Program-made: the position numbers and the translations under genes
Shown: one piece after another, positions 5,482-34,699 of the stretch
Layout: each line of letters opens with the position of its first letter
How positions within the stretch are numbered: position 1 is the stretch's first letter
Notes under the pieces: generated by a model
Seen by the model: only the letters and a program-made list of their open reading frames with translations
Database searches by the model: none
Told to the model about the DNA's origin: nothing
Virus record (IMG/VR): IMGVR_UViG_3300020171_000084
Coordinates: 1 to 34,699 of that record
Strand: one strand, 5' to 3'
Source of the DNA: a virus
DNA length: 34,699 nucleotides

Positions 5482-5493
5482 TCAATGATTAAT

Positions 5494-5571
5494 AGTCAGT
5501 TACTATAGTCAGTTACTATAGTCAGTTACTATAGTCAGTTACTATAGTCAGTTACTATAGTCAGTTACTAT
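5494..5571. repeat. Six exact 13-bp tandem repeats
   Basis: AGTCAGTTACTAT occurs six times in exact tandem: 5494-5506, 5507-5519, 5520-5532, 5533-5545, 5546-5558 and 5559-5571. The last copy contains the TAG stop of the major capsid gene. The 13-bp period cannot be translated in register. A similar string (ATAGTCAGTTATAAT) appears once in the TerS leader near 12,275. Replication slippage is the simplest origin. Confidence 0.95.
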
Positions 5572-6860
5572 ATCTTATTTGCTACGACTGTGATGTCCTG
5601 CAACTTTCCTAACCATGCACGGTTATGAACAGCCATATTTACATACCATGCCCACTCACACTGCCACTGGTCCTTGTTACCGTCCCGATGAATAATACCA
5701 TCTCCGTAGTCAAGAAAACCCATGGGGGCAGCCTCGTGGAGTTTAATCGCACGGTTATCGATAAAGAACATCTGGTCGATGCAATAAGGGTCTTTATAGA
5801 TTGGAATACCATTATGCATAATGGCTTTCCATCCCGTATCAAGATAGCCCTTAATGGTATCGTAAGTTACGATCTGGTTCTCGGAACGTGCCATCTCACC
5901 ATAGGTAAGGTAAACGGCGTTCGAGGTGAGAATCAAGTCTACATTACCGCCTGCAACTTCGATGTCATCAATAACTTCCTGAATACGATTGGTTGTAAGA
6001 GCTTCAGCAGTACCAGAAGTTGTACCGTACTTAACCTGAGATTTCCATTCAGGATAGGTAGCAACGGCGATGCCCTGGAATGATGCATTCTTCGTGCCAT
6101 CATCAATAAGAGACTGAAAACCTTCCATCTCATAAACTGAAGAACCGGATTTATTGCTGCCAACATAGCAGTAATCTCCGTCAACAACTTCATCAACATC
6201 GCCTGCGGCTGTGAATGTAACAAGAGCTTCAGTTGTTGGGAACGAACCCGGAACAATAGATGAAATAGTCGCTGTATTAGCAACATCTCTGATTGTATCG
6301 CTGGTGAAAAAATCCACAACCATATTACTGGTTAGGAATTTCGCACCATTAACCTGCGAGTTATTGAACCCTGATAAGCCATAAGCATTATCAACTTCCA
6401 CAACTGCAGCCGCAGCATTGGCAGATGCCTGACAAAGTATACCAAGACCATCACCCAATACCTGTCTGTTCATCTGCTGACGGAATGCACGGGATTTAAC
6501 ACGAAGTGCATTCGAGAAAGCATCAGCCCACGCCTCAGATGATGAATCCGATGTTGCCATCACAGGGCCTGTAAGCGACATGGCAAAGTAATGATAAGCT
6601 ATACCGATAGTGCTCTGAGTATCTGAACCCGGAAGAGCTGTAGGCATTGTTCCACCCTCAGCACGTGAACCGGTTGAACCCATGTTATTAAATAGCACAG
6701 GAAGGTAGAAATTTTTACCCTGGTCTACAACTTTCCCTGCTACTGACTCAATATGTGATAACGTGAATGATTGCTCCGCAGTTGCCTGTACTATTGCCGG
6801 GGCAAATACCTGCTTAAGTAAATTAGCAAATGTGGTTCTGGTTTCTGGCGTATTAGCCAA
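5568..6860 (-). CDS. Major capsid protein, HK97-like, 430 aa
   Basis: The frame starts with TTG at 6860; the upstream site (AAAGG) is modest for such an abundant product. The N-terminal arm (residues 1-40) is helical. A long-loop region follows (QGKNFYLPVLFNNMGSTGSR), then a spine-helix-like stretch around residues 110-145 (AWADAFSNALRVKSRAFRQQ). The C-terminal A-domain contains GGNVDLILTSNAVYLTYGEM and the HNGIPIYKDPYC motif typical of this fold. Position after a scaffold gene and portal gene supports the call. The long insertion-like stretch at about residues 160-260 may be an E-loop or surface domain. Confidence 0.85.
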   Translation of the reverse strand: MANTPETRTTFANLLKQVFAPAIVQATAEQSFTLSHIESVAGKVVDQGKNFYLPVLFNNMGSTGSRAEGGTMPTALPGSDTQSTIGIAYHYFAMSLTGPVMATSDSSSEAWADAFSNALRVKSRAFRQQMNRQVLGDGLGILCQASANAAAAVVEVDNAYGLSGFNNSQVNGAKFLTSNMVVDFFTSDTIRDVANTATISSIVPGSFPTTEALVTFTAAGDVDEVVDGDYCYVGSNKSGSSVYEMEGFQSLIDDGTKNASFQGIAVATYPEWKSQVKYGTTSGTAEALTTNRIQEVIDDIEVAGGNVDLILTSNAVYLTYGEMARSENQIVTYDTIKGYLDTGWKAIMHNGIPIYKDPYCIDQMFFIDNRAIKLHEAAPMGFLDYGDGIIHRDGNKDQWQCEWAWYVNMAVHNRAWLGKLQDITVVANKI

Positions 6861-9841: not shown

Positions 9842-10161
9842 TAACTTATTACACCATCCTTAGTACCTATAAGTTCTATTACATCATCATCAACCACACC
9901 ATTTGTCATTGCTTTGATGTATTCTTGGTCTCTGCGTCTGTTAAGTTTATCTTCTTTAACATCGCTATCAGACGGAGCATGTTTCACCGCTGGACGAGTA
10001 GCATAGTAACTTGCACTGTCTTTTTGTACCATGATATAAGAGATGAATTCACGATTCTGCTTTGATAAGTGCCGCAAAAATGGGACTGCGCAACCGAACC
10101 CGAGAATTAAACCGAGAATTAAACTGAGAATAAAACTAACTAAATCAACCCACTGCTCCAT
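9841..10161 (-). CDS. Small membrane-anchored protein between TerL and portal, 106 aa
   Basis: ATG at 10161 has TTGGAG 8 bases upstream; a longer frame from 10359 is only a shadow of the terminase gene. Residues 4-28 (WVDLVSFILSLILGLILGFGCA) form one transmembrane helix. The rest is charged and polar, with AVKHAPSDSDVKEDKLNRRR, and probably faces the cytoplasm. The gene overlaps the 3' end of TerL by 17 bp and the portal start by one base, so it is cotranslated with packaging genes. It could tether packaging or serve in lysis; no family is recognised. Confidence 0.65.
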   Translation of the reverse strand: MEQWVDLVSFILSLILGLILGFGCAVPFLRHLSKQNREFISYIMVQKDSASYYATRPAVKHAPSDSDVKEDKLNRRRDQEYIKAMTNGVVDDDVIELIGTKDGVIS

Positions 10162-11707
10162 ATCGTGCTCCAAATATATTATCGTTATGCATACCTTGCC
10201 TGCGGATATTTTCCATGTGAAGCTCTTCCCTGCTCTTCGCAGTATCAATGCGGAAGTTTTTGAGCCAGAGAGGAAGCGCACTGAGTACATATTTAAGAGC
10301 ATCCAGAAGATGGTCACTCTGTCCCTTAGATGGTTTTTCGCTGTCTTTTGCATACTCATAAGACTTAATTTCGTTGATGAAGTTACGGCATTTCGGGTTA
10401 ACTGTGATAATACCCTTGCGAAGCATCCAACTAATCTTGGTTATACTTGACTCAATGTCGTTATCCCCATTGGTAATCGGCATGTGTATATCACGATTAT
10501 GAGCATTGCGGATGTAGGTCTCCATGATTGTTTCTGCTTGGTCGCCATTCCGCTTGTTCATAGATGGGTCGCACCTCCATGTCCTGACTCCAGCCCTATT
10601 ACCTATACTCATTGTTTCAGAAGTAGGGTAGTACATCTTCTGCTGTACTGCAATTGCTTTCAGCTTACCGTCTATTGCAGCAACCGTTTCTTCAATTGTA
10701 CTGGAATGCAGGAATAACTCATCGAAGATATGAACTGAAGGCCATGTCCCTGAGTGTTCTTCAACTGCAAAAAATATCACACCCGTAACATTAACTGAGC
10801 GGTTAGACGGCACACTTCCTGTACCGCCATGATCAATTCCAATGTATATCTTCCAAGAAGGATGCGGCACAACATTAGTCTTATTCACATGACTATTGTT
10901 AAAATCCTCAAAGATTGCACCCTCGAATGCATCCCACGAACCCTTAATGCGTCTATCATATTCACGCTTGCTTAGATTTTCTTTCTGCAATGATATGTAT
11001 TGCTTAGGTAAGAAGAGCGCATTATCAAAGGTCGAAACCTCTATCATTTTGTAGCTATCATTATATTTAGCGCGGGTATCTCTATCATTACTTACCCTGC
11101 ATTGCTCATTCTTAACAAAGCAATCGTATACCCACCCGCGCTTAGGGTTGCATGTTGCGAAGAACCCGTGAAATGGTATCTCTACAGGGGGATTAACCAT
11201 ATTACCTTTTATATCAAATCTGTTGAAATGCTTCAGCCTGAGACGCTCAAATGCTACACCCTTAAACACAGTTTCGGGAATCTGCTCAAGCTGGTCAGCA
11301 CCAGCCCACCCGATGTTATAGGAATGCAAATGTTCCATATCGTCAAAATGCGTAAAGTGTATCACCGATTCATTAACAAGTTCCAGTATGCCGTCCTTCT
11401 TATAGAACTTGCGAATCCATTGTTTGGGAATCCACTTCTTTAGTTCAGGGAAGGTTGTTTTGTAGAAGTCGGTAAGTCCGTAACGCCCCATAAGACCAAC
11501 ATTACCGGACATATCACCGAAAAACGGGGAATCGGAACACATGGCTATTGAACGCTGACAGAATGCCCAGGTCTTCCCACCACCGACACCGCCTGAGTAC
11601 AACAGAAACGGAGTCTTGTCAGTGATGAATGCGTACTGAGTTGCATTATCTCTGTTGCGTGTTATAGGTATTACATCTTCAAGATAAATATGATGGAACT
11701 TTTTCAG
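10145..11707 (-). CDS. terL: Terminase large subunit, packaging ATPase-nuclease
   Basis: The Walker A motif is SGGVGGGKT, the coupling-type motif is FFATCNP, and the RNase H-like nuclease part contains IYIGIDHGG and the late acidic site HLLDALKYVL. The frame is open only from CTG at 11707, after a TAA at 11708-11710. Its first residues (LKKFHHIYLEDVIP, then AFITDKTPFLLYSGG) look like genuine terminase N-terminus. The first ordinary start codon is TTG at 11602, only two codons before the Walker A motif begins, and would remove that part. The true start is therefore CTG or another rare codon, or a +1 frameshift from TerS, which it overlaps by 29 bp. An assembly error is also possible. Confidence 0.88.
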   Translation of the reverse strand: MKKFHHIYLEDVIPITRNRDNATQYAFITDKTPFLLYSGGVGGGKTWAFCQRSIAMCSDSPFFGDMSGNVGLMGRYGLTDFYKTTFPELKKWIPKQWIRKFYKKDGILELVNESVIHFTHFDDMEHLHSYNIGWAGADQLEQIPETVFKGVAFERLRLKHFNRFDIKGNMVNPPVEIPFHGFFATCNPKRGWVYDCFVKNEQCRVSNDRDTRAKYNDSYKMIEVSTFDNALFLPKQYISLQKENLSKREYDRRIKGSWDAFEGAIFEDFNNSHVNKTNVVPHPSWKIYIGIDHGGTGSVPSNRSVNVTGVIFFAVEEHSGTWPSVHIFDELFLHSSTIEETVAAIDGKLKAIAVQQKMYYPTSETMSIGNRAGVRTWRCDPSMNKRNGDQAETIMETYIRNAHNRDIHMPITNGDNDIESSITKISWMLRKGIITVNPKCRNFINEIKSYEYAKDSEKPSKGQSDHLLDALKYVLSALPLWLKNFRIDTAKSREELHMENIRRQGMHNDNIFGARYGAVG

Positions 11708-13507: not shown

Positions 13508-13516
13508 TATTTCCCC

Positions 13517-13556
13517 CAGTTCACCAGTTCACCAGTTCACCAGTTCGCCAATTCAC
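13517..13556. repeat. Five 8-bp tandem repeats
   Basis: CAGTTCAC is repeated exactly three times (13517-13540), followed by CAGTTCGC and CAATTCAC to 13556. The array lies just upstream of the metallophosphoesterase start, in its leader on the minus strand. A possible 26-codon frame (13537-13617, minus) runs into the array, but has only a weak ribosome site and is not called as a gene. Confidence 0.9.
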
Positions 13557-13623
13557 CAATAACTATTTTCTTAGTCATCCACACCCCTATCATCACTTTT
13601 GTTATTCTACTTTTCATTGGTTG

Positions 13624-18631: not shown

Positions 18632-18687
18632 AATGATTTAATGATTTAATGATTTAATGATTTAATGATTTTCTGATTTTCTGATTT
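18632..18687. repeat. 8-bp AT-rich iteron-like array
   Basis: AATGATTT occurs five times in exact tandem (18632-18671), followed by two TCTGATTT units (18672-18687). More ATGATTTATCGC-like copies lie upstream between 18,557 and 18,607. Next to the array, GCTCCCTCATT recurs as an 11-bp repeat. AT-rich iterated repeats beside a GC-rich structured segment are a common form of phage origin, but this is inference. Confidence 0.8.
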
Positions 18688-18693
18688 GCTCCC

Positions 18694-18861
18694 TCATTGC
18701 TCCCTCATTGCTCCCTTCAAAGAAGCAATTGCTCCCTTTGCCTTGTCCTGTTGCATGTCCTGCATTGTCGTTGCTATACTACTTATCATCTCAGGGCTGA
18801 GAACCGCACCCGTTGGGATATTATACACACTCCCCGCTGCGACCGCCGCCGCTGTCCCCAT
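18694..18861 (-). CDS. Possible leftward small protein, 55 aa
   Basis: The minus strand carries a frame from ATG at 18861, with AAGGG 6 bases upstream: MGTAAAVAAGSVYNIPTGAV, then LSPEMISSIATTMQDMQQDK, ending KGAMREQ. The composition looks more like protein than the overlapping rightward frames, and the C-terminus is amphipathic helix. It opposes the surrounding genes. The open frame extends further upstream (to 19,011) only through GC-rich repeats that translate to low-complexity Arg/Thr sequence. No family is recognised. Confidence 0.35.
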   Translation of the reverse strand: MGTAAAVAAGSVYNIPTGAVLSPEMISSIATTMQDMQQDKAKGAIASLKGAMREQ

Positions 18862-20650: not shown

Positions 20651-20744
20651 CGCAGTACACAGGCGACTGGACGATTTCAAATTACAAGGCAATTAGATAA
20701 TGTTTAGATTTATTCGGAAAATAAAGGAATGGAGGAAACAACTC

Positions 20745-21206
20745 ATGAATGCAGTACGAACCAGTAAAGGAATTGTTTACAACTGGCCGCATCTCCGGCT
20801 CGATCAAATCGTATTTGCAGGGGAATCATGCATCGATAATATGACAGAGGACACTCTGGATTTGGCAAACACGATGTGCCGTGACGCTGAAAGACGTTAT
20901 AACTGGCTGCATCGCATAAACAGTACATATAGACCGAACGATGAACGAGGGCAACATCCGCTCGGCCGGGCAATCGATATTGTCTTTTTCCTCGAGTTAC
21001 CGGGCGATGTTGATGTATGGGAACAATACCGGTTCGCAAAGGGGTATCCGTGGGGCGGGATCGGAGCGTATCCTTTTTGGAAGGCCGGAGGGCTGCACTT
21101 GGATACAAGACAAGATTGGAATCACATCGCCACATGGTGGAGAGATGCAACAAATCATGATCACGGGATGGCAGAAGCCGTCTCAATATTTGGAGTCACC
21201 GTTTAA
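20745..21206 (+). CDS. M15-type peptidase domain protein, likely peptidoglycan hydrolase, 153 aa
   Basis: ATG at 20745 is preferred because GGAGG lies 9 bases upstream; an in-frame ATG at 20700 has no such site. Residues 58-80 (INSTYRPNDERGQHPLGRAID) carry the HxxxxxxD zinc motif (H71, D78), and GGLHLDT (116-121) supplies the third His. This is the pattern of M15A-type metallopeptidases that cleave peptidoglycan stem peptides. No signal peptide or cell-wall-binding domain is seen. It lies in the early block, far from the holin-like gene, and may replace the broken endolysin at 31.8 kb. Confidence 0.7.
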   Translation: MNAVRTSKGIVYNWPHLRLDQIVFAGESCIDNMTEDTLDLANTMCRDAERRYNWLHRINSTYRPNDERGQHPLGRAIDIVFFLELPGDVDVWEQYRFAKGYPWGGIGAYPFWKAGGLHLDTRQDWNHIATWWRDATNHDHGMAEAVSIFGVTV

Positions 21207-22786: not shown

Positions 22787-22978
22787 ATGAGTAACACAGT
22801 CACAAGACAAGACCTTAAACGCCTTGTTGATAATCTCGACTTGGCATTTGAGGAGTACAAGGCCAAGTTGGTTATGTTGGGCTTTGACGTGCCCAGTGAG
22901 CAGGACATAATCAGACACGCAGAACACGCAGAACACGCAGAACACACAGAACACACAGAACACGAGGAAGAGTATTAA
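22787..22978 (+). CDS. Small protein with His-rich repeat tail, 63 aa
   Basis: ATG at 22787 has GAGGAGG 5 bases upstream. Residues 1-43 form charged helices (TRQDLKRLVDNLDLAFEEYK). The tail consists of AEH/TEH triplets (HAEHAEHAEHTEHTEHEEEY) encoded by a 9-bp tandem repeat CACGCAGAA (22,916-22,967). Six closely spaced His residues could bind metal, or the tail may simply be the result of slippage. The stop overlaps the next ATG (TAATG). Confidence 0.65.
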   Translation: MSNTVTRQDLKRLVDNLDLAFEEYKAKLVMLGFDVPSEQDIIRHAEHAEHAEHTEHTEHEEEY

Positions 22979-23157
22979 TGGACTGGGTAATGGACTGGGT
23001 AATGGACTGGGGGGCTGTAATCATCGCAGTTTACCTACTGTATGCTATCATTGCAATCTGGTGGGCTTATCGCTCAATGCGACCGATGACAACACGGCAA
23101 GAACTTATAATTCGCAAAATACTTACAGAGGAGTGGAGTAATCATGACACTAAGTAA
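22978..23157 (+). CDS. Small membrane protein with MDWV repeats, 59 aa
   Basis: ATG at 22978 overlaps the previous stop. The N-terminus MDWVMDWVMDW comes from a 12-bp tandem repeat ATGGACTGGGTA. Because each copy carries an ATG, initiation could occur at any of the three. Residues 12-32 (GAVIIAVYLLYAIIAIWWAY) form one membrane helix, followed by a basic cytoplasmic tail (TTRQELIIRKILTEEW). It overlaps the next gene by 14 bp. A role in membrane or superinfection functions is possible but unproven. Confidence 0.65.
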   Translation: MDWVMDWVMDWGAVIIAVYLLYAIIAIWWAYRSMRPMTTRQELIIRKILTEEWSNHDTK

Positions 23158-23431
23158 ATTCAAAAATAACTTTATCATCTGGGTATCTGGACGGCTCACA
23201 AGCTTTGAGGATACAGAGTCGATTACAGAGGTGCTTGCAAAGAACGGTTATACATTCGCTGTTATATACTCTGGCGCAAGTAAGCAACGTTATCAAGTCA
23301 TCAGAGCATTCCAGCCCGATGATGTATTCATGGGTCGAGCTATGGAGCATCCCAAGTTCAACTATTACTACCAGATTCACAATTGCAAACTGATTGCGTT
23401 CTGGGACAGAGGGGAGCAAATCCATGTGTGA
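23144..23431 (+). CDS. Hypothetical protein, 95 aa
   Basis: ATG at 23144 has GAGGAGTGG upstream. The product MTLSKFKNNFIIWVSGRLTS continues FEDTESITEVLAKNGYTFAV, then YQVIRAFQPDDVFMGRAMEH and ends GEQIHV. It looks like a soluble alpha/beta protein. No family is recognised. It overlaps neighbours on both sides, so it belongs to a tightly coupled cluster. Confidence 0.7.
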   Translation: MTLSKFKNNFIIWVSGRLTSFEDTESITEVLAKNGYTFAVIYSGASKQRYQVIRAFQPDDVFMGRAMEHPKFNYYYQIHNCKLIAFWDRGEQIHV

Positions 23432-23666
23432 ATATGAATATGAATATGAATATGAATATGAATATTACTGCGGGTATTGTGAAGAGCCCTGCGATCCTAT
23501 CTACATCGAGGACGGATACGGATACACCGAATTCTGGGGTAGACCAAGTTTCCACCAACATCAGAGCTGGGTGTCAGACTGCCATGAGGACACGCTGTAT
23601 CGGGATGGTGAGCTGGATAAAGAGTGGGAGCAGAACGAAATCAACTGCGCGATGGGAGGTGATTGA
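23424..23666 (+). CDS. Glu-Tyr repeat, Cys/His-containing protein, 80 aa
   Basis: ATG at 23424 has GGGGAG 9 bases upstream. The N-terminus MCEYEYEYEYEYEYY is encoded by a 6/12-bp GAATAT repeat. CGYCEEPC and later SFHQHQSW and DCHED offer Cys/His ligands for one zinc site. The C-terminus is acidic (RDGELDKEWEQNEINC). No family is recognised. The repeat unit is a multiple of three and keeps frame. Confidence 0.6.
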   Translation: MCEYEYEYEYEYEYYCGYCEEPCDPIYIEDGYGYTEFWGRPSFHQHQSWVSDCHEDTLYRDGELDKEWEQNEINCAMGGD

Positions 23667-25812: not shown

Positions 25813-26427
25813 ATGGTAAAGCTGCTCACTAAATTATCTGCTTGTTTCGCAGTACGCAGGAGAATCGTAGCTCCGAAGCCTACGGTAAATAGGATTCCGA
25901 AGGGCTTCACACTAATTATAGATAGTAGTGAGCAGCAACCATTGTTTAGCAGACCACCAGAAGGACTTACCATTGTACGCAAAGCACTCAGCAAGCATCA
26001 TGATAAGGGATGGGAGGGAGACTATACCATTGAAGGGTACGAGGATAAGGTTGCAATCGAACGCAAAAAGATTTCTGATTTATATGGGTACTTTGGGGAG
26101 TATGTAATAGGGAGAGTGCCAACCAAGGGAGCGCAGAAGATTCACAGACTGGCGAATATGAAGTGGGCAGCCCTAATCATTGAGAGCACTGAGACGAAGC
26201 TGAACAAGCAGTACAGATACACCACATTTACACCAGCACATATCCATGGCTTTATTGTATCACTCAGAGTACGCTATGGAATTCATGTCTATGTGAGTAA
26301 TAGGAGGAATAAGCTTGAGGAGTTTGTGTTGAAACATCTGATTAAGGTATACAATATATTACAATCGGACGGGGAAGTAAGAGGTAAGATACTGGAGGAT
26401 AAGTCCAATGCCAAAGATATGCCGTGA
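25813..26427 (+). CDS. ERCC4/XPF-fold nuclease, 204 aa
   Basis: ATG at 25813 has AGGAGG about 12 bases upstream, slightly far. The nuclease core shows LIIDSSEQQ (35-43), GDYTIEG (69-75) and VAIERKKISDLYGYFG (80-95), matching the GDx(n)ERKx3D signature. The first 20 residues (MVKLLTKLSACFAVRRRIVA) may not belong to the domain. Such enzymes cut branched or single-strand-flanked DNA in recombination. It closes the ATPase/ssDNA-binding/nuclease module and overlaps the next gene by 20 bp. Confidence 0.8.
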   Translation: MVKLLTKLSACFAVRRRIVAPKPTVNRIPKGFTLIIDSSEQQPLFSRPPEGLTIVRKALSKHHDKGWEGDYTIEGYEDKVAIERKKISDLYGYFGEYVIGRVPTKGAQKIHRLANMKWAALIIESTETKLNKQYRYTTFTPAHIHGFIVSLRVRYGIHVYVSNRRNKLEEFVLKHLIKVYNILQSDGEVRGKILEDKSNAKDMP

Positions 26428-31184: not shown

Positions 31185-31258
31185 TACACATTATATTTGC
31201 AGTTATCGGGTGGTGCATCGTTGGACTTATGGTGCTGACATTACTGAGAGGTGAATAA
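31181..31258 (+). CDS. Possible transmembrane peptide with ATA start, 25 aa
   Basis: GGAGG lies 7 bases before ATA at 31181, and the frame then reads a membrane helix: VHIIFAVIGWCIVGLMVLTL, ending LRGE. No ATG, GTG or TTG precedes the helix in this frame. Position at the end of the early block would suit a small lysis or membrane peptide. The unusual start makes the call weak. Confidence 0.3.
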   Translation: MVHIIFAVIGWCIVGLMVLTLLRGE

Positions 31259-31304
31259 GTAGTAAGTAGTGAGTAGTAAGTAGTGAGTAGTATTGAGTAG
31301 TACT
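31257..31304. repeat. AGTAGTGAGT-type tandem repeat
   Basis: AAGTAGT and GAGTAGT units alternate through 31257-31304 after the last early gene. No reading frame of interest lies within. It leads into a boxA-like sequence and the convergent terminator. Confidence 0.8.
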
Positions 31305-31415: not shown

Positions 31416-31688
31416 TCAGGTTGTTTTCTTTTTAAGTAAAGGAGCACCCGCTTCTATAGCTTCGATAACTTCCTTTCCGATAATGGCGTACTCTTCTTTT
31501 GTGAGGGACTTGCCTCCGGGGGACTTAAGGTCTCTGCCCTTCAGATATACCTGCCCTATGTCCACTATTTCCTTGTAGAATGTAGAGTATCTCTTCCACT
31601 GAGATAAACCCAGCGCAGCTATACCGCAAATAATAGCCTGCACAATCGGGTTAGTAAATATTTTCAATGCCAAATTAACAGCTTCCAT
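31416..31688 (-). CDS. Holin-like single-span membrane protein, 90 aa
   Basis: ATG at 31688 has AGGAGGGG 5 bases upstream. Residues 11-31 (FTNPIVQAIICGIAALGLSQ) form one membrane helix. A Lys/Glu-rich amphipathic cytoplasmic tail follows (KSLTKEEYAIIGKEVIEAIE) with a poly-Lys end (LLKKKTT). A small membrane protein directly behind an endolysin-type gene suggests a holin. A single span would make it a class III or pinholin-like type. Role inferred from context. Confidence 0.55.
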   Translation of the reverse strand: MEAVNLALKIFTNPIVQAIICGIAALGLSQWKRYSTFYKEIVDIGQVYLKGRDLKSPGGKSLTKEEYAIIGKEVIEAIEAGAPLLKKKTT

Positions 31689-31699
31689 AATTACCCCTC

Positions 31700-31935
31700 C
31701 TAATTATTAAGAAGTTCAAAATGTGGTCTATCCACAAGTTTTCCTGCTTCATCCCATAGTACCCCATTATTGTTCCAATCATGCCCCCATCGTATGCGTA
31801 TATCGAATGCGTATGCAGCCATGAGCATGTAACCTGCAAGCATAGCCATCTCTTCGTAAGCATCCCACATATCTTAATTAAGTTTGGATGAACATTGATT
31901 AGTTTACTGTCGCTGTGGTCTCCGAACTTTGGCAT
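31700..31935 (-). pseudogene. Broken M15 endolysin gene with internal deletion
   Basis: ATG at 31935 keeps a good AAGGAG site and starts MPKFGDHSDSKLINVHPNLI, the usual N-terminus of phage M15 (VanY/CwlK-type) endolysins. The matching C-terminus lies in another frame (31870-31700): MWDAYEEMAMLAGYMLMAAY, AFDIRIRWGHDWNNNG and VDRPHFELLNN. The middle of the family, about 60 residues with the SxHxxGxAxD zinc site, is absent. The junction is near 31,870-31,880. Translation from the ATG reads out of frame to 31,675. The gene cannot make an active enzyme as it stands. Confidence 0.75.
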
Positions 31936-31956
31936 AATTATAACTCCTTAGAAGCC

Positions 31957-34699
31957 TTAGAAGCCCTCGAATCCCTTGAATCCAGAGAATGACTTGAACG
32001 GGGAGACTCCATGTGTGGTGCGCCCTTTTGGGGTACGCTCTCGTTTCACCTTAAACAGTAACTCCTTATAACCACCATTTTCATCACTTATTGCTTTCTG
32101 TACATCTCTACCAGCGAGATACCCAGGAACAAACATACCGTATGAAGTGAACAAATTCTTCTTAGCCTTCGCATGTATGTATGGATCATCACTCCATATA
32201 TTTACCATTGATGAAAACATCTGTACACCCGGCGAAGGTCTCATTGAAAATACACCTGACTTAACTCCCATAGGCGCATCCTTATCACGAACGATACCAA
32301 GTGATTCACTGTAATCGAGTCCCATTGTTTTCTCGATAGTGCCAACTACCAGACCAAGACCCACAAAATGTTTTATTAATCCTGCTCGTGTATTTACAGG
32401 AAGTTTTAGTTTGCCCGTCTTATCCCATCCGGGTGTACCCTTGACAAGACGACTACCCATATCAGAAAGATATTTACTAAAATAATTCATCGGGTATGAC
32501 TGCAACTTAAATGCTGCTTTCGAAGCGGGGTTTTGGAATACACCGGGCAGTCCAGTAGCATGATAGATAAACTGAGTATGACTGACTACCCAATCTATTT
32601 CTTTACCCACCATGACCCTCTCTTCTTCGGAAAGATACTCACGCCAATTAGCTTTACCTGCTTTTTTTGCGGTAGCTCTAAGTGTTTTACCCTCTTCAGT
32701 TCCCCAATTTATACCCTGCTTACCGTACCCTAACCCATCACCATTGATATATTTAATGGTTTGGAAATAGGTTGCTTTCGCCGCAGTCTCAACATTAAAC
32801 ACATGCGACTTGGCAAACATAGAATAGGCTGCTTCTTCTACACTGCCTTGTGACAGTTTCATACCTTCTTCTGCACTTATCTTTGACACATTAAAGGTAG
32901 CAGACTTACCTGTAATTTCATGATATTGAATAGGCATATCTTTTGCTCGTACTGTCATTGCCTTAGCAAGAGAACCTGTATCGGTATAACCATGTACATA
33001 CAAACTCTGCATCATATTACGTATCGCAAGTTTTGGTCTACCAGCTATATATGCACGGCTAACAGACTTACCGAACCAATTCGAAACAACATCTGCGGGT
33101 CTTGTTGATACATCCCTGTTAAACTTATTCATAATTGATTCAACAGCTTGCCCTACTTTGTTGTTCTTCATAAATCCATACAGTGACCTGTTGGCCGCAT
33201 CAGTTAGTTCAGTAGGTCTGCCAGCTACAAACACATTAGCAAACAGAGCTATGCTATCAGCAGCTTCCTTAGACATTTCGCCACCTGCCCTCATCACATT
33301 TGTTCGAGCCTTGAGTAATTCGATGGGCTTATGCAACCAAATAGTTTTCAAGTCAAAACGTACCATTGCCATCAGAGCTTTCTCAACATCGGTTTCGTAT
33401 CCTTCTGCTCCGGTGCGTTCCTTTAGGAAGTTCTGTGATAGCTTGGAAACTCTTTTGACCGGTGGGGTAAACACACTTGCTATCTCTCCGGCTGGTGCAG
33501 CCCCTAAATTCTTCTCCGCTTCTGATACCTTAAAGATATGCGCAACGTACCCCTTGATACCCTTGATAGGTTTCTGCCCTGAGTCTTCGAGTGTCCGGTT
33601 CATCCGTTCCATAAAAAACCTTGTCATCTTGCGTAACTGAGTGAACGTTGATTTTTGGTCTAAGTTCAAACCATTACGCATCTCGTTGAGTTCTTTACCG
33701 CTTTGTGTATCGAGCATCTGGAATAGCAAGTCTCTCTGTTTCACCTGAGTGTTAGCCTTGAACGCTCCAAACTTTTGACCAAGTGTAACCTTACTTGCAT
33801 CATCCCATTGACCCAGTAGATTCTTTACTGCTTTGCTGAACTTAGCTTCTGTTACTGATAACATCATTGATGCGTGTTTGAGATTGTCCGTTAGGTCTGA
33901 GGCACCAGTTCGGAATATTGCTTCATCTATAGGTGTAAGAGTTCTGCCAAGAAGACCCAGCCCTTTGATACCACCAATGTCAACTCCACCCGTCACCTGA
34001 TTCATTGCCTCAACGCGGATGAATTCCCATACTTTTTGTGCTTCATCACGAGTAATACCTTCAAGTGACGATGTACGGTCTTTTGTAATACTCATTATCT
34101 CTGTCTTGAGTTCGCTTTCCATCTTGAGCAGGTCACCGCCAGCCTTAACTTTTTCATACTGAGACTTAGGCCATTGCTGACCTTTCTTAGACTGAACATA
34201 GAATGGGTCACCACCCTTTTTCTTACCAATAATCAACGGTTTCTTTTTCGCAAGAGCATACAATGATTCTATCTCTGTTGGTAACGGCCCACTATTGAAT
34301 TCAGTAAGTAACTTAGCAAAATCACCTGTTCGCATTGACTTTTCAACATCTATCAAGACGTTTCTGTTCAGTTTCTTTACTACCTCTCCACGCTCTTTCC
34401 AGCCACGAGATGCTAAACCACCCATTGCCATACCTGTTAAGAACGTTGTTGCCATCTCTTCCTTTGTGAAGTTCTCACCCTCCGTTACTTTTCCTATGGA
34501 CTCAGCCAGTAAGAATGATGTACCACCAGAAACCATCTGTTTTAGTGGATGTGAAAGCGTAAATACAGACTGTCCCATACCAAAGATTGAGCCTTGTGCG
34601 AATCCACTTATACCTGCTACCCCGGCTTCATACAAATTTACATCATTCTCTTTCACTTGCTCAACAAACTTCTCAGCAATATCATGAGCACCAAAGAGT
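31957..34699 (-). CDS. Very large internal virion/ejection protein, N-terminus beyond right edge
   Basis: The frame is open to the right edge (LFGAHDIAEKFVEQV precedes the first GTG at 34656), so the start lies outside; over 910 codons are visible. The visible N-terminal part has Gly-rich hydrophobic stretches (VAGISGFAQGSIFGMG; FLTGMAMGGLASRG). Then come long helical regions and a C-terminus of SPFKSFSGFKGFEGF repeats. Size, helical content and place beside the lysis genes resemble internal ejection proteins of T7-like and other podoviruses, or large polyvalent-type proteins. No lytic motif was recognised in the visible part. Confidence 0.6.
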   Translation of the reverse strand, partial: LFGAHDIAEKFVEQVKENDVNLYEAGVAGISGFAQGSIFGMGQSVFTLSHPLKQMVSGGTSFLLAESIGKVTEGENFTKEEMATTFLTGMAMGGLASRGWKERGEVVKKLNRNVLIDVEKSMRTGDFAKLLTEFNSGPLPTEIESLYALAKKKPLIIGKKKGGDPFYVQSKKGQQWPKSQYEKVKAGGDLLKMESELKTEIMSITKDRTSSLEGITRDEAQKVWEFIRVEAMNQVTGGVDIGGIKGLGLLGRTLTPIDEAIFRTGASDLTDNLKHASMMLSVTEAKFSKAVKNLLGQWDDASKVTLGQKFGAFKANTQVKQRDLLFQMLDTQSGKELNEMRNGLNLDQKSTFTQLRKMTRFFMERMNRTLEDSGQKPIKGIKGYVAHIFKVSEAEKNLGAAPAGEIASVFTPPVKRVSKLSQNFLKERTGAEGYETDVEKALMAMVRFDLKTIWLHKPIELLKARTNVMRAGGEMSKEAADSIALFANVFVAGRPTELTDAANRSLYGFMKNNKVGQAVESIMNKFNRDVSTRPADVVSNWFGKSVSRAYIAGRPKLAIRNMMQSLYVHGYTDTGSLAKAMTVRAKDMPIQYHEITGKSATFNVSKISAEEGMKLSQGSVEEAAYSMFAKSHVFNVETAAKATYFQTIKYINGDGLGYGKQGINWGTEEGKTLRATAKKAGKANWREYLSEEERVMVGKEIDWVVSHTQFIYHATGLPGVFQNPASKAAFKLQSYPMNYFSKYLSDMGSRLVKGTPGWDKTGKLKLPVNTRAGLIKHFVGLGLVVGTIEKTMGLDYSESLGIVRDKDAPMGVKSGVFSMRPSPGVQMFSSMVNIWSDDPYIHAKAKKNLFTSYGMFVPGYLAGRDVQKAISDENGGYKELLFKVKRERTPKGRTTHGVSPFKSFSGFKGFEGF

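Follow-up and report, generated by a model that had tools for sequence, protein, structure and literature searches.

An M15C endolysin gene, probably broken recently, among the lysis genes of an uncultivated tailed phage

The locus at 31,935–31,700 (minus strand) of IMG/VR virus record IMGVR_UViG_3300020171_000084 belongs to the late lysis operon of a tailed phage known only from uncultivated material and is probably a pseudogene, broken not long ago, that once encoded a single-domain endolysin of the M15C (L-alanyl-D-glutamate peptidase) type, an enzyme that cuts the bacterial cell wall. A single internal deletion, with a net loss of 3n+1 bases and ~55–60 codons, would have cut out the segment bearing the first two zinc ligands and thrown the reading frame out of register; the translated product would then be catalytically incapable, comprising 22 native residues followed by a tail read in the wrong frame. 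The initial annotation had proposed that an M15 endolysin gene was inactivated here by an internal out-of-frame deletion, and this is well supported, as profiles match both parts of the gene. The window (the whole stretch of DNA analysed, 34,699 bases) is one assembled contig of class linear; genes run off both of its ends, indicating that it is an incomplete fragment. The features on which the argument draws are as follows:

31,944–31,949, minus strand: Shine–Dalgarno sequence AAGGAG, spaced 8 nt from the endolysin start codon (direct reading)
31,870–31,935, minus strand: endolysin N-terminal remnant MPKFGDHSDSKLINVHPNLIKI, 22 codons (best PSSM match, 6.8 SD; M15C profile)
31,867–31,873, minus strand: deletion junction, located to within a few bases (frame offset; alignment with 13 intact relatives)
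31,700–31,873, minus strand: endolysin C-terminal remnant containing IRIRWGHDW and VDRPHFELL, with its own stop TAG (phrog_465; M15C profile)
31,675–31,935, minus strand: 86-aa out-of-frame ORF, the product expected from the endolysin start, overlapping the holin start
31,416–31,688, minus strand: probable holin of 90 aa with a single transmembrane segment, immediately following the endolysin remnant (hydropathy, position)
20,700–21,206, plus strand: remote M15A-like protein, 168 aa, start at 20,700 or 20,745 (custom M15A profile)

Reading the letters directly, we found the endolysin start ATG at 31,935 (minus strand) preceded by the Shine–Dalgarno sequence AAGGAG (31,949–31,944) at 8-nt spacing. 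The minus-strand ORF that begins at this ATG has 86 codons; it opens with MPKFGDHSDSKLINVHPNLIKI, and resemblance to the family is lost thereafter. The remainder of the family sequence lies in another frame (31,873–31,700, minus strand), which reads D followed by MWDAYEEMAMLAGYMLMAAYAFDIRIRWGHDWNNNGVLWDEAGKLVDRPHFELLNN and a stop codon, a 57-residue stretch ending VDRPHFELLNN. This arrangement, an M15 N-terminus with a strong ribosome site followed by a C-terminus in a different frame, is as first described from the letters of the sequence, and no single continuous reading frame joins the two parts. The offset between 31,935 and 31,870 is 65 nt, hence the net loss of 3n+1 bases.

Both translated parts were compared with M15 profiles, as the initial annotation had recommended, and both matched one M15C model. 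For the C-terminal part, the E value against a custom M15C profile in the six-frame window was 2e-13 and that against phrog_465 (endolysin) was 1.2e-8, or 1.4e-9 when the window alone was searched; a full-length IMG/VR relative (MPKFSASS...VDRPHFELV) also matched this part by tblastn (4e-11). The N-terminal part was assessed using a PSSM built from 13 intact M15C members. The segment KFGDHSDSKLINVHPNLIKIC scored 33, within the 29–53 range of real members, and ranked first among 28,442 six-frame 21-mers at 6.8 SD, the runner-up reaching 4.3 SD, while the whole fragment in this frame matched the custom M15C profile with an E value of 0.0095. The two parts fit the start and end of the M15C model in order and abut each other, with positions ~29–85 absent. 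The locus thus resembles the single-domain M15C phage endolysins (EndoT5, EndoRB49 and phrog_465) in its N-terminus (MPKFG..S..L...HP.L, the family N-terminus of phrog_465), in its C-terminus (IRIRWG.DW...VDRPHFEL) and in adjoining a gene for a small membrane protein; it differs from them in lacking the central segment that carries the first two zinc ligands and in having its halves in different frames. One observation on a gene of the same family concerns Vibrio phage PG07 (MH645904; 1501–1878 of the stretch examined), in which the annotation of the M15 peptidase gene as deposited (1762–1878) leaves out much of its start: the M15C tblastn match begins at 1501, adjoining the end of the Clp protease gene.

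EndoT5 binds zinc through H66, D73 and H133 and uses D130 for catalysis (PMC10487532). The locus studied here lacks the segment that would correspond to H66/D73, whereas the equivalents of D130 and H133 are retained in VDRPHFEL, which carries the C-terminal zinc His and the catalytic Asp (D(R)PHFE) and is invariant in the family alignment. Judged against relatives of usual length, the loss amounts to ~55–60 codons (roughly 165–175 bases), bearing out the earlier estimate that ~60 residues with the zinc site had gone; the ancestral sequence, exact size and breakpoints of the deletion are reconstructed from relatives at ~40 % identity. The zinc His is lost and the zinc Asp almost certainly lost too. 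An automatic alignment took the first D of the C-terminal remnant as the zinc Asp, an assignment that we rejected, since the MW that follows corresponds to a DW that relatives carry a little way beyond their PYP motif. The zinc His is absent under either alignment of this residue, and the locus as encoded therefore cannot, on its sequence, make an active M15 enzyme.

The break looks recent, given that the invariant C-terminal residues are all intact and the 57-codon frame is still open. The junction itself was probably present in real DNA molecules, because a base-calling error cannot remove ~170 bases and skipping by an assembler requires long repeats.

The surrounding gene order is consistent with a late, minus-strand lysis operon. 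The 90-aa protein encoded directly downstream has a hydropathy peak of 1.84 over 19 residues and returned no convincing family match in Pfam or PHROGs; it is a probable holin, as intact M15C genes in other phages directly precede a small membrane protein or an annotated holin, and it is intact, as are the long genes in the rest of the window. Upstream of the lysis genes, 31,957–34,698 (minus strand) encodes a protein of at least 899 aa that runs off the contig and for which Pfam, PHROGs, phage records and viral contigs yielded no relatives. Elsewhere, in the frame of the terminase large subunit (10,145–11,707, minus strand) the first usual start (TTG at 11,602) is directly followed by the Walker A motif, and the in-frame extension to 11,707 contains no ATG, GTG or TTG, begins with CTG and overlaps the small subunit; a non-standard start or a frameshift is possible for this gene.

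The window also contains numerous short tandem repeat arrays: 22 after merging (score ≥40, periods 5–21, many of them perfect), compared with 4–7 in four other phage genomes (36–45 kb) and 0–1 in the shuffled window. Examples lie at 5,492–5,572, 13,516–13,558, 18,632–18,716, 22,915–23,011, 23,429–23,465 and 31,251–31,302. This excess could reflect slippage-prone replication, potentially a source of deletions too, and may be more unusual than the endolysin pseudogene.

If the genome is viable, lysis would have to rely on a different enzyme. The M15A-like protein at 20.7 kb is one candidate; the other is an enzyme encoded off the contig, since the contig is incomplete and a further endolysin gene may lie beyond its ends. 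The 20.7-kb protein had been put forward as an M15 protein with a complete zinc site. It is present, and its His-Asp-His residues (H86, D93 and H133) fall on the zinc-ligand positions when it is aligned to the M15A profile (residues 83–140); the relationship is only remote, however, and falls below PF08291 detection. Against a custom M15A profile built from 11 members of the M15 peptidase family of Nonlabens phage P12024S, it gave an E value of 3.7e-4; the next value in the window was 3.3, and nothing else was found. There was no PF08291 match at E 10 and no M15 match in Pfam hmmscan, the only PHROGs match was phrog_894 (endolysin, 0.032), and tblastn against 50,697 phage records placed the M15 peptidase of Nonlabens phage P12024S first, at a non-significant E value of 3. 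A single-sequence fold model was too poor to use (pLDDT 39). The protein shares QHPLGRAIDI and GGIGAYPFWKAGGLHLDTR, with H/D/H in register, with the M15A/Peptidase_M15_3 (PF08291) phage peptidases (Nonlabens phage P12024S gene 13, SP6 gene 43), yet it differs from them in its extended N-terminus as well as in its great divergence. We regard it as likely to be a very remote M15A-like protein, and it may possibly have taken over lysis. Among other phages, Bacteroides phage BO668P1 (OP172698) has an open M15A-like frame by tblastn at 151–447 of the stretch examined, mostly without an annotated gene.

No close relative with an intact copy of the endolysin gene was found in IMG/VR viral contigs, INPHARED phage records or GTDB species genomes, as searched in a form that may leave out near-identical records. 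The queries comprised DNA, the junction 27-mer, the C-terminal part as protein and as alignment, the 899-aa neighbour, TerL, the portal, the capsid and its alignment and, against viral and genome contigs, the 20.7-kb protein; these returned distant relatives only. One of the 22 capsid relatives carried phrog_465, and none carried PF08291 or the 20.7-kb protein. Literature titles and abstracts held nothing directly bearing on natural endolysin pseudogenes or two-endolysin genomes.

Several other accounts of the locus were weighed against a pseudogene. The deletion may be atypical, representing a minority or dead variant or a DNA-amplification chimera in the assembly, with most genomes carrying an intact gene. 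The gene is otherwise undecayed, and the evidence comes from a single linear IMG/VR contig that has no close relative for comparison, both of which would fit such a variant; nevertheless, the size of the loss does not correspond to a base-calling error, graph assemblers skip sequence only where there are long shared repeats and the junction allows very short homology only, and the long genes elsewhere in the window are intact. On balance, we consider this explanation unlikely. About equally doubtful is the proposal that the deletion is fixed in the lineage and that the divergent M15A-like enzyme of the early block, encoded away from the holin, is now the working endolysin.

That the short product is itself functional, for example as a regulatory peptide or one that binds the wall without zinc, produced through frameshifting or a restart at the ATG present at 31,870 (minus strand), appears very improbable. 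The C-terminal part is fully open and conserved, as this would require, but direct reading found no Shine–Dalgarno sequence upstream of that ATG, two of the three zinc ligands are gone, and searches with the C-terminal part as protein and alignment returned no relatives of the shortened form. We give even less credence to a missing middle that is encoded at another site and brought in through DNA rearrangement or splicing: neither end of the contig is complete, leaving room for such a piece, but six-frame searches did not find it elsewhere in the 34.7-kb fragment, and we know of no phage endolysin assembled in this way. A weak match at 25,991–26,176 (minus strand, E value ~0.01) was treated as chance; it is antisense to a gene with an ERCC4 nuclease domain (PF02732, 6e-6), and the zinc Asp is missing from it.

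A pseudogene created by one internal deletion thus remains our preferred reading. Phages are known to lose genes through internal deletions, and the disruption of the endolysin is real but fairly ordinary, the deletion being well documented and its consequence not. For annotation, the locus calls for caution, as profile searches would call the C-terminal half alone an endolysin in spite of its missing catalytic site. Lytic phages can seldom do without an endolysin; its clean loss beside an intact probable holin therefore suggests either that another enzyme has replaced it or that environmental assemblies include non-viable variants. Were the deletion fixed and the early-block enzyme now responsible for lysis, this would be a case of natural endolysin replacement in which the former gene can still be recognised.
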